The translations under genes and the position numbers were made by a program. The notes beneath the pieces are model-generated. The model was not told the DNA's origin and did not search any database. It was given only the letters and a program-made list of their open reading frames with translations. Shown here in pieces: positions 2,463 through 8,030 of a DNA stretch of 64,000 bases (position 1 is the first letter of the stretch; every line of letters starts with the position of its first letter). The stretch is from contig JAHDHX010000004.1 in assembly GCA_020631075.1 (NCBI GenBank), positions 1 to 64,000 on the forward strand, in the 5' to 3' direction. The DNA is from Candidatus Altimarinota bacterium. GTDB lineage: Bacteria; Patescibacteriota; Gracilibacteria; UBA4473.

Positions 2463-2632
2463 TTCTTGAAAATCTTCTAGAATGATCGTTCTATTTTATC
2501 ATTTGTGTGTTTATAATGCAAAAGTGTTGAGATGCAAATTCCTTTGGACGGAGGGGGAGGGTGTCGGGGCTTGTAATTTGTCTTTATCTGTTTACATTCG
2601 CGCTGATCAGGCTCTCTCAGGTGTGCTGTGAC

Positions 2633-4252
2633 ATGATACATGAATTACAACAATGGCTGCGCGTGGGGGGAAATCGGTCGGTTTTTTGGCTGGGGGTGGG
2701 CGTGCTGCTGGGGGCTATTGGCCTGCGGTGGGGGTGGCTGGGGTCTTACCCCTATGGGATATTTGGTGATGAGACCTTCAGTGCGATGGAGGCGATCGCG
2801 ACGTGGGACAACCTTGATTTTAAGGTGTTTTATAACACGAATGGTGGCCGTGAGGGGGGGCATATTTGGATATTTGCGTTGATACATGGGCTGTTTGAGC
2901 CCTCCCGCTGGACGCTGCGGGCAGGGGTGGCGCTGGTGGGGACGCTGTCGGTGCTGTGGACGCCCTTTGCGGTGTATGAGTGGCTGCGCCCCAACCCGAA
3001 CACCGAAGAAGGCACCTCTGAAAAACAGACTGACGAGACAGTGCCCGAGGGAATGACCGCTGAAACACGAACGGTGATCGCTTTAGCGGCGATGGTGCTG
3101 ATTGCGTTTAGTTATTGGCATGTGAATTTCTCACGCTATGCGATCCGAGGAATTTTAGACGTGATGTACGGAGCGTTGAGTATTTTTTGTCTGTCGCGGG
3201 CCTTCCGTCCGCAGGCGGGCTGGGGCGTGTGCCTGTTGACGGGGCTGGTGGTGGGGCTGGGGCTTTATGGGTATGGGACGTATAAATTCTTGGCGGTGCC
3301 GATGGCGTACTGGATGGTGCACCGACGGGCTGACCCTAAGCGCGTGGCCGTGGTGGCGGTGGTGACGCTCTTGATCATCTCGCCGCTGATTACGTACATC
3401 GTGACGCAAGGTGACGCGTACTTTGCGCGGCTCAATAAACTCTCTGTCCAGGGGACCGGGCACCCTGTGGTGGCCTTCGTGGTGAATGTGCTGGAGCACC
3501 TGAAAATGCTGTTTTTGGAGGGGGACTCGAACGGTCGGCACAACCTGTGGCCGCAGCCGCAGCTGAGCCCCATCCTGTCGGTGCTGATGCTCCTCGGGGT
3601 TTGGCAGGCGGGTCGGGCTGTGTGGCGGGGGCAGTCGGCCTTACTCACCCGACCGCAGGGGATTTTTCTCTTCATCTGGCTGGCGGTGATGTTCATCCCC
3701 GCTTCGGTGACCAACCAGCGCATCCCCCACGCGCACCGTACCATCGGGTTGATCCTCCCTTGCGTGACGCTGGGGGCCATTGGCTGGGGGACGCTGTGGC
3801 ACTGGCTGCGGCACCAGCCGACTGAGCGTCGTGTGCTGGGGGCGCTGGGGAGTGGGCTGCTGTTTGTTTCGGTGGCGTGGAATTACTTTGTGACGTATGG
3901 GAATGTGCTGTTTGATGAGTACCCGCACGAGGCCGTCAAAGCGGCGGAGCATATGCGGTCGCTGCCAGCGCAGGTGCCGCGGGTGATCGTGACGGGGAAC
4001 AACGGCAAGTCGCATGACCATAATGTGTACACGTTTGAGTATTTGCTCAATGACCGCGATCAAACCTATGTGAAGTCGCTGCTGTTGCCCGTGAGTGAGC
4101 TGCCAGCGCGGCTGAAGGCGCAGCCCAACACCCATGTGTATAGCTCGGTGAAGTATGAAAAACAGGTGCGGAAGCTGAAGCTGCCCGCGGGGCAAATGCA
4201 CCTGTATGAAGCGGGGCTGCGGCCGAAGCCCGAGCAGCACCTCTTCCCATAG
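2633..4252 (+). CDS. GT-C family glycosyltransferase, ArnT/PMT (GT39)-like
   Basis: Multi-spanning membrane protein of about 539 residues. After the first membrane segment comes YGIFGDETFSAMEA, an Asp-Glu in the first extracytoplasmic loop as in ArnT/PMT-type GT-C enzymes, which transfer sugar from a polyprenyl phosphate to an acceptor outside the membrane. Many further hydrophobic segments follow, and the C-terminal ~110 residues are soluble. The ATG at 2633 places this motif just after the first membrane helix. A GTG at 2561, preceded by a purine-rich GAGGGGGAGG, would add another hydrophobic segment and cannot be excluded. It is followed by an LRR lipoprotein and an ALG10-like enzyme on the same strand, which suggests one glycosylation operon. 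Donor and acceptor are not predictable from sequence. Confidence 0.75.
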   Translation: MIHELQQWLRVGGNRSVFWLGVGVLLGAIGLRWGWLGSYPYGIFGDETFSAMEAIATWDNLDFKVFYNTNGGREGGHIWIFALIHGLFEPSRWTLRAGVALVGTLSVLWTPFAVYEWLRPNPNTEEGTSEKQTDETVPEGMTAETRTVIALAAMVLIAFSYWHVNFSRYAIRGILDVMYGALSIFCLSRAFRPQAGWGVCLLTGLVVGLGLYGYGTYKFLAVPMAYWMVHRRADPKRVAVVAVVTLLIISPLITYIVTQGDAYFARLNKLSVQGTGHPVVAFVVNVLEHLKMLFLEGDSNGRHNLWPQPQLSPILSVLMLLGVWQAGRAVWRGQSALLTRPQGIFLFIWLAVMFIPASVTNQRIPHAHRTIGLILPCVTLGAIGWGTLWHWLRHQPTERRVLGALGSGLLFVSVAWNYFVTYGNVLFDEYPHEAVKAAEHMRSLPAQVPRVIVTGNNGKSHDHNVYTFEYLLNDRDQTYVKSLLLPVSELPARLKAQPNTHVYSSVKYEKQVRKLKLPAGQMHLYEAGLRPKPEQHLFP

Positions 4253-4301
4253 GGGGGAGGATGTGGAAGTATGTGGGGGGTGTTTTATCAGAAAATAATG
4301 C

Positions 4302-5498
4302 GTGATGCGTAGTGGAATGAGACTGGGGGTGCTGCTGCTGGGGGTTTGCCTGCTGAGTGGGTGTGGCACGGGGCGAACCGCCATGGAGACCTTCCGCGTG
4401 AAGAAGAACCTGTGCTATAGCAGTGCCGAAGTCGTGAAAGGCGAGTGTGAGGCGCTGGTGGATTTGTACTTCGCCACGGGGGGGCGTGACTGGCACCGTC
4501 AGGGTGACTGGCTGAGTCGCAAACCTGTCCGCCAGTGGGAGGGGGTGACGGTGGAGAACCGTCGGGTGGTGAAGCTCGACTTGGGGGAGAATAACCTGCG
4601 GGGGGAGCTGCCTGACACGCTGCATTCCTTCCCCAAGCTGAAGGAGCTGCGCCTCGACCGTAACCAGCTGTCGGGGGGGCTGCCCGCGGCGCTGGGGCAA
4701 CTGAAGCAACTGCGAGTGATAGACCTGTCAAAAAACCTGTTTGTGGGGAAGCTGCCGAGTGACTGGAAGAAGCTGGGCAATGTGCGTGAGCTGGACTTGA
4801 ATGGGAATTACATCGGAGGGGAGATCCCCCCGTGGATAGACCGCTGGGTGGAGCTGCGGCGTCTTGACCTGCATCGGAATATGTTTGCGGGAGAAATCCC
4901 TCCGCGGTTGGCGGCGCTGCCCCAGCTGCAGGATGTGCGGTTGTCGTTTAATCTCTTCCGTGGGGAGCTGTCGCCTGAGCTGCTGTATGGGCCAGGGCGG
5001 ACGCGGGTGGTGCTGAACCGTAACAAACTGACAGGGCCGCTGCCCGCGCCACTGCCTGGGACGGTGATAGAGTACCTGGATGTGAGTCAAAACCAACTGA
5101 CGGGTGAGCTGCCGACCGCGCTGGGTGAGGTGCCGACGCTGTGGCGACTGGACGTGTCGGTCAACCAGCTGACGGGGCCACTGCCACCCGGGCTGCTGGG
5201 TTTGCCAGAGATGCGCTGGGTGAGCCTCGGGCATAATAACTTCGTGGATGACCTGAACCAATATTGGGAGGACCTGCACCCGCAGATCAAGCACTTGGAC
5301 CTGGCGGGCAATCACCTATGGAGTGGGGGGGCGCTGCCCCTGCCGCGGGCCAAGATGCTCAAGCTGGGGGGAAACTGCTTGCGCTTCCCCCCCGGGACGA
5401 GCGAGAATGTGCGCCTGGGGAACCGTCGGCTGTGGCCGCAGCGCGCGGTCGACGACTGTGTGCGGCGGTCAGAAACCGTGATGACTCAAACCCTCTAA
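4302..5498 (+). CDS. Leucine-rich-repeat lipoprotein
   Basis: 398 residues. The N-terminus is a lipoprotein signal: basic start, hydrophobic core and lipobox LLSGC with Cys at residue 21. The mature N-terminal part (ALVDLYFATGGRDWHRQGDW) resembles the cap region that precedes plant-type LRRs in many bacterial surface proteins. About ten LRRs follow in the style LRxLDLxxNxxxGEIPxxL. It is likely exported and membrane anchored, acting in binding. It ends 4 nt before the next gene's ATG, so it is probably co-transcribed with the ALG10-like gene and could be an acceptor or partner of the flanking glycosyltransferases (inference). The LRR style matches that of the fusion protein at the left edge. 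Confidence 0.85.
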   Translation: MMRSGMRLGVLLLGVCLLSGCGTGRTAMETFRVKKNLCYSSAEVVKGECEALVDLYFATGGRDWHRQGDWLSRKPVRQWEGVTVENRRVVKLDLGENNLRGELPDTLHSFPKLKELRLDRNQLSGGLPAALGQLKQLRVIDLSKNLFVGKLPSDWKKLGNVRELDLNGNYIGGEIPPWIDRWVELRRLDLHRNMFAGEIPPRLAALPQLQDVRLSFNLFRGELSPELLYGPGRTRVVLNRNKLTGPLPAPLPGTVIEYLDVSQNQLTGELPTALGEVPTLWRLDVSVNQLTGPLPPGLLGLPEMRWVSLGHNNFVDDLNQYWEDLHPQIKHLDLAGNHLWSGGALPLPRAKMLKLGGNCLRFPPGTSENVRLGNRRLWPQRAVDDCVRRSETVMTQTL

Positions 5499-5502
5499 GA
5501 CT

Positions 5503-6789
5503 ATGACTGATATGATGACCCGATGGCGGCTATTTATGCAGCGCAACGAAGTGCCGATGGCGGTGAGCGTGCTGCTGCTGGTGTGCTGGGTGCTGCTGTG
5601 GGAGGTGCCGTGGTTTAATGATGAGAATACGCACTTCCACCAGACGCTGCTGTTTGAGCAGGGTCAGTGGGAGATGCTGACCATCGTGACGACGTTGCCT
5701 GGGTTTAACGCGCTGATGTCGCTGGGCGGGAAACTGCTGCCACTGCCGTATGAGCCCGGGGCGTACCGCTTGCTGCCAACGCTGGTGGCGATCGGGAGTG
5801 TGTGGCTGGTGTGGGACATCATTGCGCAGCTGCGCCAGCGCGACGCGACGACGCGTCTGCTGCAATACGCCTTCTTGCCGGCGGTGTTTTATTTCGCGGT
5901 GAGCTTCCACACGGAGTACACCGCCCATGCGGGGCTGCTGCTGGGCCTCATGCTGGGGCTACGGAAGCACTACGCCCTGAGTGCGCTCGCGCTGGGGGTG
6001 GCGGTGCTGGTGCGACAGCAAAACCTGATCTGGCTGGGGGGAATACCCCTGATAGTCGCCATGTGCGCGGGCCAGCGCCTGACGGACGTCAAAGCCCTGT
6101 GGACGTGGGGGTGGCAGCGGTACTGGACGCTCATCCCCGTGGGGGTGGCGTGGTTGGCCTTTTTTGCCTGGAACGGAGGGGTGGCGCTCGGGCACCAGCA
6201 CATGCACAGTGGGGGGTTTTATTTGTCTAACCACTTCGTGCTGCTGGCAGTGTGCGGCGTGCTGTGGTGGCCGCTGTTGCTGACGCGCTGGGCGACGGTG
6301 TGGGCGGTGCTGCGCCGACGCTGGTGGGTGACGCTGCTGGTGGGGGTACTGCTGGCGGGGGCATACTGGTGGGGGATGAGCCCGACGCATGAATTTTTGT
6401 ACTATAAGCTAGAAGCGCGGAACTACGGCGACTGGGGCGTGCTGTGGGAGGAAGGTGGGAAGCTGAAGAATTACATTATGGACAATGTGCGTCAGTCCGC
6501 CGTGGCGCGCGCGGCCTTCGGGGGGGTGAGTGCGCTGGGGGGGCTGGTGCTGCTGTCGCTGCGTGGCGGGTGGCGGATAGGCGTGGCGGGGCTTCTTTCG
6601 CTGGTGGTATTGCTCCCGCAGGAGCATATCTCCCTCCGCTATTATGTGACGCCCCTCCTCCTGCTGGTGCTGCTGCAGGGGGAGCAAAGTGACCGCGAGG
6701 CCAAACTCATGACGGGGTATTTCCTTGGGCTGGCGGTGTTTATTTTCTACACGCAGTTTGTCGGTGACTGGACGGTGCACTTTTATTAG
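5503..6789 (+). CDS. ALG10/DIE2-like polytopic glycosyltransferase
   Basis: 428 residues with about ten membrane segments. Three signatures match the eukaryotic ALG10/DIE2 (GT59) alpha-1,2-glucosyltransferase: FNDENTHFHQ (39-47, cf. DEIFHxPQ), TTLPGFNA (63-70, cf. ITTLPGLY) and VRQQNLIW (170-177, cf. FRQTNIIW). In eukaryotes ALG10 adds the terminal glucose to the lipid-linked oligosaccharide using dolichyl-phosphate-glucose. A bacterial homologue would use a polyprenyl-phosphate sugar on the outer membrane face (inference). The convergent gene at 6861-8030 encodes an ALG5-like polyprenyl-phosphate-glucose synthase, the expected donor supplier. The exact start is uncertain because several in-frame ATGs lie at the N-terminus. 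Substrate and acceptor are unknown. Confidence 0.75.
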   Translation: MTDMMTRWRLFMQRNEVPMAVSVLLLVCWVLLWEVPWFNDENTHFHQTLLFEQGQWEMLTIVTTLPGFNALMSLGGKLLPLPYEPGAYRLLPTLVAIGSVWLVWDIIAQLRQRDATTRLLQYAFLPAVFYFAVSFHTEYTAHAGLLLGLMLGLRKHYALSALALGVAVLVRQQNLIWLGGIPLIVAMCAGQRLTDVKALWTWGWQRYWTLIPVGVAWLAFFAWNGGVALGHQHMHSGGFYLSNHFVLLAVCGVLWWPLLLTRWATVWAVLRRRWWVTLLVGVLLAGAYWWGMSPTHEFLYYKLEARNYGDWGVLWEEGGKLKNYIMDNVRQSAVARAAFGGVSALGGLVLLSLRGGWRIGVAGLLSLVVLLPQEHISLRYYVTPLLLLVLLQGEQSDREAKLMTGYFLGLAVFIFYTQFVGDWTVHFY

Positions 6790-6860
6790 GCCGACTGTCC
6801 TTGTCCCCTGCCCTGCTCTGGAAAATACAGCTGTAGGGCGTCAGGGGGTTTTTCGAGGGC

Positions 6861-8030
6861 TTAGTGGTAGCGCTGGGTCCAGATATTGAGCTTGATGTAG
6901 ACGAGCTCCAACAAGGTGCGAACGGTGTCGCGCAGGGGGCTGAACTGACCGCCGTCGCAGTGGGCCCAGGTGACGGGCACTTCCGCGATGCGGTACCCGA
7001 GCATCCGCCCGATGGACAAGGCTTCGATGTCGAAGCCCCAGCGGTGAATTTTTTGGCGGGGAAAGATCTGCTGGGCGGCCTCAAATGAGAAGAGTTTGAA
7101 CCCGCACTGGGTGTCGTCGATGCCGTCGAGCACCATGAGCTGGATGAGCTGGTTGCCCAGCCGCCCAATGCGCTGACGGAGGGGGGACTGTTCGACGGTG
7201 ATCTGGGCGCGGTTGGCGTGGCGCGACCCAATGACGATGTCGTGGTCGGTGGCGTAGGGCAAGAGCTTGCTGAGGTCACGCAGGGGGGTGGAGTTGTCGG
7301 CGTCCATAAACAGGAGGTGACCGCCGTGCCCCAGCGCCATGCCGTGGGCGACCGCGGCGCCTTTGCCTTGATTATGCGGGAGGGACACCACCGTGGCGTG
7401 GGCGTACCCCGACAGGGCCGTGCGGGCCACAGCAGCGGTGTCGTCGCCTGAGCCGTCATCCACCACGATGATCTCGATGGTTTGCTGGGCTTGGTCGGGG
7501 GCTTGGACCCAGGCCAGCACGTCGGCCAGGGTGGCGGGCAGGCGTTGGGTTTCTTTGTACGCGGGGATGATGACCGATAAGTCCACGGACTGGTCACGGG
7601 TGGTGCGGATGGCGCGCTTCTGGATGCGGAACGTCCAGTACTTATTAGCAGAAAAATTCCACAGGACAACCAGGGCGGAAGTCAAGAGCTTGGACAGGAT
7701 GTGGTGCCACTGAAACACGTGCACGAAGAGGTACATGAGGGCGAGCGTCAACGCCAGGCCGACTAGGGCAACGCTGAGGAATTTCAGGAAAAACTTGCGG
7801 TGGTGGGACTCTTTGATCTGGAAGGTCCAGACTTTGTTGAGGAGATAATTATGAATGACGGCAAGGACAAACGCCACTGCCGAAGCCGGCAGCACCCGCA
7901 CCCCTGCCCAGTCGTGCAGGACGAAAAGGGTCAGCACGTCGACCGCGGTGCCTGCCACCCCGACGATGGCGTAGCGGACGAGGGCCTGAAACTGGGGCGG
8001 GATGAGGCGGGTGAGTTGGGTGAGCATCAC
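6861..8030 (-). CDS. GtrA-like membrane domain fused to ALG5-type polyprenyl-phosphate glucosyltransferase
   Basis: 389 residues. Residues about 15-136 are a four-helix GtrA-like domain (YAIVGVAGTAVDVL, NYLLNKVWTF, NFSANKYWTF), a family linked to flipping polyprenyl-phosphate glucose. Residues about 151-370 are a GT2 catalytic domain with IIPAYKE, VVDDGSGDDT, NQGKGAAVAHGM, MDADNSTP (243-249), DTQCGFKLF and FDIEALSIGRMLGYRIAEVPV. This motif series is characteristic of dolichyl-phosphate glucose synthase (ALG5-type). Such an enzyme transfers glucose from UDP-glucose to a polyprenyl phosphate on the cytoplasmic face, and the fused GtrA part could flip the product. It converges on the ALG10-like gene. 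The start may be the first or second ATG (8030 or 8027). Confidence 0.88.
   Translation of the reverse strand: MMLTQLTRLIPPQFQALVRYAIVGVAGTAVDVLTLFVLHDWAGVRVLPASAVAFVLAVIHNYLLNKVWTFQIKESHHRKFFLKFLSVALVGLALTLALMYLFVHVFQWHHILSKLLTSALVVLWNFSANKYWTFRIQKRAIRTTRDQSVDLSVIIPAYKETQRLPATLADVLAWVQAPDQAQQTIEIIVVDDGSGDDTAAVARTALSGYAHATVVSLPHNQGKGAAVAHGMALGHGGHLLFMDADNSTPLRDLSKLLPYATDHDIVIGSRHANRAQITVEQSPLRQRIGRLGNQLIQLMVLDGIDDTQCGFKLFSFEAAQQIFPRQKIHRWGFDIEALSIGRMLGYRIAEVPVTWAHCDGGQFSPLRDTVRTLLELVYIKLNIWTQRYH

Follow-up and report, generated by a model that had tools for sequence, protein, structure and literature searches.

DIE2/ALG10 (PF04922, CAZy family GT59) is an alpha-1,2-glucosyltransferase of the eukaryotic endoplasmic reticulum, and the locus described here raises the question of whether a Candidatus Altimarinota bacterium encodes a member of this family next to the maker of its lipid-linked sugar donor and, if so, whether the pair amounts to a eukaryote-style pathway. 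The window, that is, the whole stretch of 64,000 nucleotides that was analyzed, is the start of a 202,789-base contig (C8) in a genome of 1.46 Mb (50 contigs, 95.9% complete). The initial annotation gave the coordinates and the reading of the genes correctly but did not mention the convergent orientation of the putative donor-maker and the ALG10-like gene. The locus contains the following features:

2561..4252, + strand: second GT-C-like membrane protein (PMT_2, PF13231), first gene of the probable operon
4302..5498, + strand: leucine-rich-repeat (LRR) protein with a lipobox recognized by eye (LRR_1, 100.3 bits), possible acceptor or surface partner
5503..6789, + strand: ALG10/DIE2-family GT-C membrane glycosyltransferase of 428 aa (PF04922), candidate user of a lipid-linked sugar
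5620..5625, + strand: codons of the acidic pair Asp40-Glu41, located where the first extracytoplasmic loop starts (from the alignment and the model)
6861..8030, - strand: GtrA-GT2 fusion of 389 aa (PF04138, PF00535), putative polyprenyl-phosphate-sugar synthase and probable flippase
7629..7976, - strand: N-terminal GtrA domain (PF04138, full length, 1-117), candidate flippase
7062..7577, - strand: GT2 catalytic domain (PF00535, 1-168 of 168) with the motif DTQCGFKLF, taken from the translation

The three genes on the forward strand look like a single operon because the gaps between them are just 49 bp (2561-4252 to 4302-5498) and 4 bp (4302-5498 to the ATG of 5503-6789), and the order GT-C, LRR lipoprotein, ALG10-like gene (2561-6789) is, accordingly, a probable operon. 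The GtrA-GT2 gene faces the ALG10-like gene across 71 bp, and given this convergent orientation, the two are probably not co-transcribed; a promoter and terminator scan of the locus gave a signal near chance. The LRR lipoprotein that had been placed in this cluster is indeed there (4302-5498). So is the GT-C gene described as ‘ArnT-like’, but its likeness to ArnT consists only of a marginal PMT_2 match (27.7 bits, barely above the cut-off of 26.1); the genome has three PMT_2 matches, this one included. At the edge of the window, an ORF on the reverse strand (3-2462) runs off the contig start and ends in plant-like leucine-rich repeats that resemble those of the nearby LRR lipoprotein; its N-terminal 730 residues match no family above the Pfam cut-off.

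The protein encoded by 5503-6789 (ATG start) has DIE2_ALG10 as its sole Pfam match (E 2e-19, 70.6 bits against a cut-off of 27), falling in two stretches of the profile (5-159 and 213-310 of 391 in the genome search), and no other protein in the genome matches this family. A profile built from 28 relatives matches the protein over positions 1-407 of 409. The match is not due to chance, because just two of the 379 sampled genomes of the phylum pass the PF04922 cut-off, namely the window genome and G238. Weak matches in seven genomes of the phylum, partial and below the cut-off, were taken to be other GT-C proteins and left uncounted. In the family tree, the protein has the longest branch (2.97, compared with a median end branch of 0.67), without a supported sister, and its closest relative is 27% identical (both tree and alignment omit L065 and L069, in which the ORF is in two pieces, and L050, L053 and L071 are in the tree and absent from alignment A6). 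The protein also departs from the family at near-invariant sites (H69N, Y136H, D138E, N299L and E377S, family residue first); together with the long branch, these departures indicate that its specificity may have drifted. The protein is a real but drifted member of the ALG10 family.

In the AF2 model (28 aligned sequences, mean pLDDT 88.9), the protein folds confidently as a GT-C enzyme. The top VIA-align matches of the model are all GT-C enzymes, ALG12 (Z 20.9, rmsd 4.2, 304 aligned), OST/STT3, ArnT and PMT, with no ALG10 chain among the best 50; Foldseek yielded nothing at E <= 0.001, with ArnT as the best match at 5.9e-3. ALG12, OST, ArnT and PMT use polyprenyl-linked donors. The PDB sequences gave no phmmer match to the protein itself, and a profile of 13 relatives found a single spurious short match and no ALG10 chain. 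With PF04922 above its curated cut-off and a GT-C fold in the model, the assignment of 5503-6789 as an ALG10/DIE2-like transferase holds, and neither HMM nor structure searches put the protein in an unrelated GT-C family. Eleven columns are invariant across the 28 sequences (M1, D40, E41, R89, P126, T137, R171, Q172, N243, R379 and Y380), and in the model, all these residues except the start Met lie in outer loops or in the outward-facing half of helices, the conserved residues being placed in or at the outer ends of EL1, EL2, EL3 and EL6. Asp40-Glu41, invariant in 28 of 28 sequences and located after TM1 in the model, would be the expected catalytic base region. The loops of the protein carry 14 Lys and Arg residues on the inner side versus 7 on the outer side. 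Counting on the model helices gives 13 TM segments in a 1-8-4 plan, the plan proposed for eukaryotic ALG10 in PMC6801728. The window protein thus resembles eukaryotic ALG10 in Pfam family, in modeled topology and in having an acidic pair in the first outer loop, but differs in lacking several near-invariant residues and in being encoded in a genome without STT3.

The latter difference bears on the wider claim of a ‘eukaryote-style pathway’, which goes too far: STT3 (PF02516) has no match in the 95.9%-complete genome, whereas control archaea give matches, and the two window genes are convergent. The lack of an STT3 match means that the eukaryotic acceptor pathway is missing, and the module in the window is not an N-glycosylation pathway.

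The description of the convergent gene as a GtrA-ALG5 fusion is borne out, inasmuch as GtrA and an ALG5/DPM-type GT2 are both clear in one polypeptide (GtrA_DPMS_TM, PF04138, residues 19-134, 102.4 bits; PF00535, residues 152-323, 98.5 bits), which is also the only GtrA match in the genome. The GT2 domain resembles the ALG5/DPM1/GtrB-type synthases in its DTQCGFKLF motif, which is ALG5-like, and in its nearest solved chains, Pyrococcus DPMS (5mlz), ArnC and GtrB (first 314 of 389 residues searched). Unlike these synthases, it has GtrA fused at the N-terminus and no NCBIfam equivalog at cut-off (24 models match and none reaches its own cut-off); in the Pyrococcus DPMS, the membrane domain comes after GT2.

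Which sugar the fusion would handle is a separate matter. Bacterial PMT (GT39) uses polyprenyl-P-Man made by a GT2. Glucose, named in the initial annotation, is not supported, considering that no curated model reaches its cut-off for this GT2 and that the Peribacterial GT2 often lies beside a PMT. Moreover, the sugar does not follow from membership in the ALG5 clade, because the Dol-P-Man synthase AglD falls nearer this clade, as noted in Lombard 2016 (PMC4973528). The same module might, then, use polyprenyl-phosphate mannose (or another hexose) and extend O-mannosyl-type glycans, with no glucosylation and with a sugar different from that of eukaryotic ALG10, a reading that is possible if unlikely and that the placement of AglD favors. 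It is also favored by the Peribacterial relatives, in which the unfused GT2 adjoins PMT in five of the ten genomes of family f5 that have this GT2, as judged by Pfam (PF02366 and/or PF16192) in G569 (L031/L042), G573 (L093) and G582 (L096) and by phmmer only in G238 (L041) and G558 (L044, a 141-aa piece at the contig start), so that mannose is favored there; GT87, too, flanks ALG10 in L031/L042. The similarity to bacterial O-mannosylation lies in this presence of PMT in the same cluster (L031, L093), but the window genome differs in having no PF02366 match. Mannose is further disfavored by the Myxococcota, which pair an ALG5-type GT2 (with DTQCGVKFF, read from the sequence, where the window GT2 has DTQCGFKLF) directly with ALG10, with no PMT or GT87 match in those loci.

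The ALG10 family extends far beyond the window. Within the class, a two-sequence profile detects ALG10-like proteins in 13 of 353 genomes, the window genome and 12 of one other family (a 51-aa match in G687 was left out), and a search of 84,980 species genomes that used five Peribacterial relatives as queries gives, besides the window, 32 loci that span about ten bacterial phyla and one archaeon (ORFs were defined by the longest-ORF rule, with no gene finder, and the GT2 and ALG10 coordinates in L031, L093 and L098 come from the ORF list or the search). These loci belong to Peribacteria, Moranbacteria, Pseudomonadota, Myxococcota, Gemmatimonadota, Omnitrophota, Spirochaetota, Planctomycetota, Bacteroidetes and one Woesearchaeote, and the carriers include isolates (Archangium, Corallococcus, Jeongeupia, Tahibacter) along with many MAGs. 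All nine of the 32 loci that were compared with Pfam exceed the PF04922 cut-off, in two of them with a single stretch that covers nearly the whole profile, and coverage in the relatives reaches profile positions 3-390.

This distribution, together with the properties of the ORF, makes it exceedingly improbable that the gene is a eukaryotic contaminant or was very recently acquired from a eukaryote. Such an origin is suggested by the patchy distribution of the family and by PF04922 being named for eukaryotic enzymes. However, the ORF is intron-free and is embedded in a 202,789-base contig with otherwise bacterial-style ORFs, its best identity to any relative in the tree is 27%, and relatives are found in isolates; on these grounds, contamination was rejected.

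Several of the other loci have peculiarities of their own. In Omnitrophota (L056:3-11197, JAKLFP010000004.1), six ALG10-like ORFs lie in a row on one strand, a tandem family expansion; the first is partial at the locus edge and about 4 kb from the rest, the whole ORFs are about 405 aa, and the ORFs score 108-159 bits to the Peribacterial protein. In four Lysobacterales loci (L057, L061, L067, L068), the ALG10-like gene is located just downstream of ribosomal-protein genes (rpsM/rpsK/rpoA/rplQ-like by eye), an odd but repeated arrangement. Surface-glycan genes adjoin the ALG10-like gene in L049 (Polysacc_synt flippase), L058 (sugar dehydratase) and L072 (UDPG/GDPMan dehydrogenase and GT2).

The proximity of a donor-maker to a donor-user (71 bp in the window), emphasized in the initial annotation, recurs elsewhere. 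Within 2 kb of the ALG10-like gene, 6 of the 32 loci, all from Peribacteria or Myxococcota, have a strong ALG5-type GT2 (scoring at least 80 bits against that of the window): the pairs are on the same strand in L041 (9 bp apart) and L042 (51 bp apart), separated by 1.95 kb in L044, and divergent in three Myxococcota (L051, 142 bp; L053 and L055, 54 bp each). Weaker GT2 genes occur within 2 kb in L054, L062 and L072, and L042 holds a second, weak one. The remaining 23 of the 32 loci have no GT2 within 2 kb (phmmer E 1e-4), and with the window included, 26 of 33 are without a strong ALG5-type GT2 at this distance, some flanks ending at contig ends. Across the class, a strong ALG5-type GT2 (E below 1e-30) is found in 6 of the 13 genomes with ALG10 compared with 28 of the 340 others (Fisher p 5e-4, uncorrected for kinship), a co-occurrence that is not phylogenetically independent because five of the six genomes belong to one family. 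The recurrence of the pairing with GT2 lends indirect support to the parts acting together. Between the GT2 and the ALG10-like gene of G558, and adjoining the PMT end, lies a 594-aa membrane protein that is GT-C-like by eye (L030:1370-3154, - strand).

That the GtrA-GT2 fusion is dedicated to ALG10 is not borne out, since 28 of the 34 genomes of the class with a strong ALG5-type GT2 have no ALG10-like match. Neighbors were inspected in 27 of these 34 genomes, and among the 14 GtrA-fused cases fetched besides the window, seven adjoin a polytopic membrane protein (at least 8 TM by simple count, excluding two NRAMP-like and one MraY-like neighbor identified by eye): one with PF02366, one with PMT_2 below the cut-off, one with DUF2079 and the rest without a Pfam match among those scanned, the scan leaving out the neighbor in L084. 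Because half of the cases adjoin other polytopic proteins, the GtrA-GT2 fusions seem to be donor-makers of general use whose partners can be exchanged. In two genomes of the same class (G499:C125 and G542:C11), the GT2 matches span 13 and 16 in-frame TGA codons, respectively, as expected for lineages that reassign TGA.

The window pair could also be a coincidence of neighborhood, the GtrA-GT2 protein serving 2561-4252 or another GT-C enzyme and the ALG10-like protein receiving its donor from elsewhere, for example from a second ALG5-type GT2 encoded in the same genome (G000:C7:132617-133321, without GtrA, 108 bits to the first). The existence of this second enzyme, the convergent orientation of the two genes and the GtrA-GT2 fusions in the class without any ALG10-like gene all favor this explanation, which nevertheless appears doubtful: pairings occur independently in Peribacteria and Myxococcota, the single GtrA and the single ALG10 of a 1.46 Mb genome are 71 bp apart, and the C7 copy has no polytopic or GT-C-like neighbor within about 4 kb (by TM count).

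Somewhat better than even is the case for a three-component-type module for extracytoplasmic glycosylation with an ALG10-family transferase. The three-component logic of synthase, flippase and GT-C transferase is established, as set out in PMC11127046 and PMC7389260. By analogy, the window module would work like the Gtr and Csb-Gtc-Yfh systems, with an ALG10-family transferase: as in GtrA/GtrB/Gtr and CsbB/GtcA/YfhO, a GT-A synthase, a GtrA flippase and a GT-C transferase are clustered (PF00535, PF04138, PF04922), but the synthase and flippase form one polypeptide, the GT-C enzyme is of the ALG10 family and the genes are convergent rather than in one operon. On the cytoplasmic face, the GT2 domain of 6861-8030, as its family suggests, would load polyprenyl phosphate with a hexose (most likely glucose or mannose) taken from a nucleotide sugar, and the fused GtrA domain would help the lipid-linked sugar across the membrane. 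The 5503-6789 protein, which has Asp40/Glu41 in its first outer loop, might then receive the sugar from the lipid at a site that faces outward and pass it on to an extracytoplasmic acceptor. The second GT-C protein (2561-4252) probably adds another sugar or draws on the same donor, and the LRR lipoprotein (4302-5498), encoded in the same probable operon, is a candidate acceptor. The cell probably employs the pair to attach sugars on its outer side; as a type of glycosylation module this is familiar, and what is unusual is the transferase.

According to section 13 of Lombard 2016 (PMC4973528), Alg10 appears unique to eukaryotes, BLASTp having given no prokaryotic homologs and HMM searches having returned mostly PMT and DUF2029 proteins. 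A literature search found no title or abstract opening that reports a bacterial ALG10, most subscription journals being outside its coverage. A far-reaching scenario, in our judgment improbable, is that pairs of ALG5-like and ALG10-like proteins represent an old prokaryotic module that glucosylates extracytoplasmic glycans and was transferred among bacteria and to some archaea, and that the last glucosylation of the eukaryotic N-glycan was recruited from this module rather than invented in eukaryotes. Now that family members are known from about ten bacterial phyla and one archaeon, a tree can test where the terminal glucosylation step of eukaryotes came from. There being no ALG10 chain in the PDB sequence search or among the best 50 VIA-align matches, the bacterial ALG10-family enzymes are candidates for structural work. 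For the glycobiology of bacteria with tiny genomes, the locus suggests that a compact set of donor and user genes adds a surface glycan.
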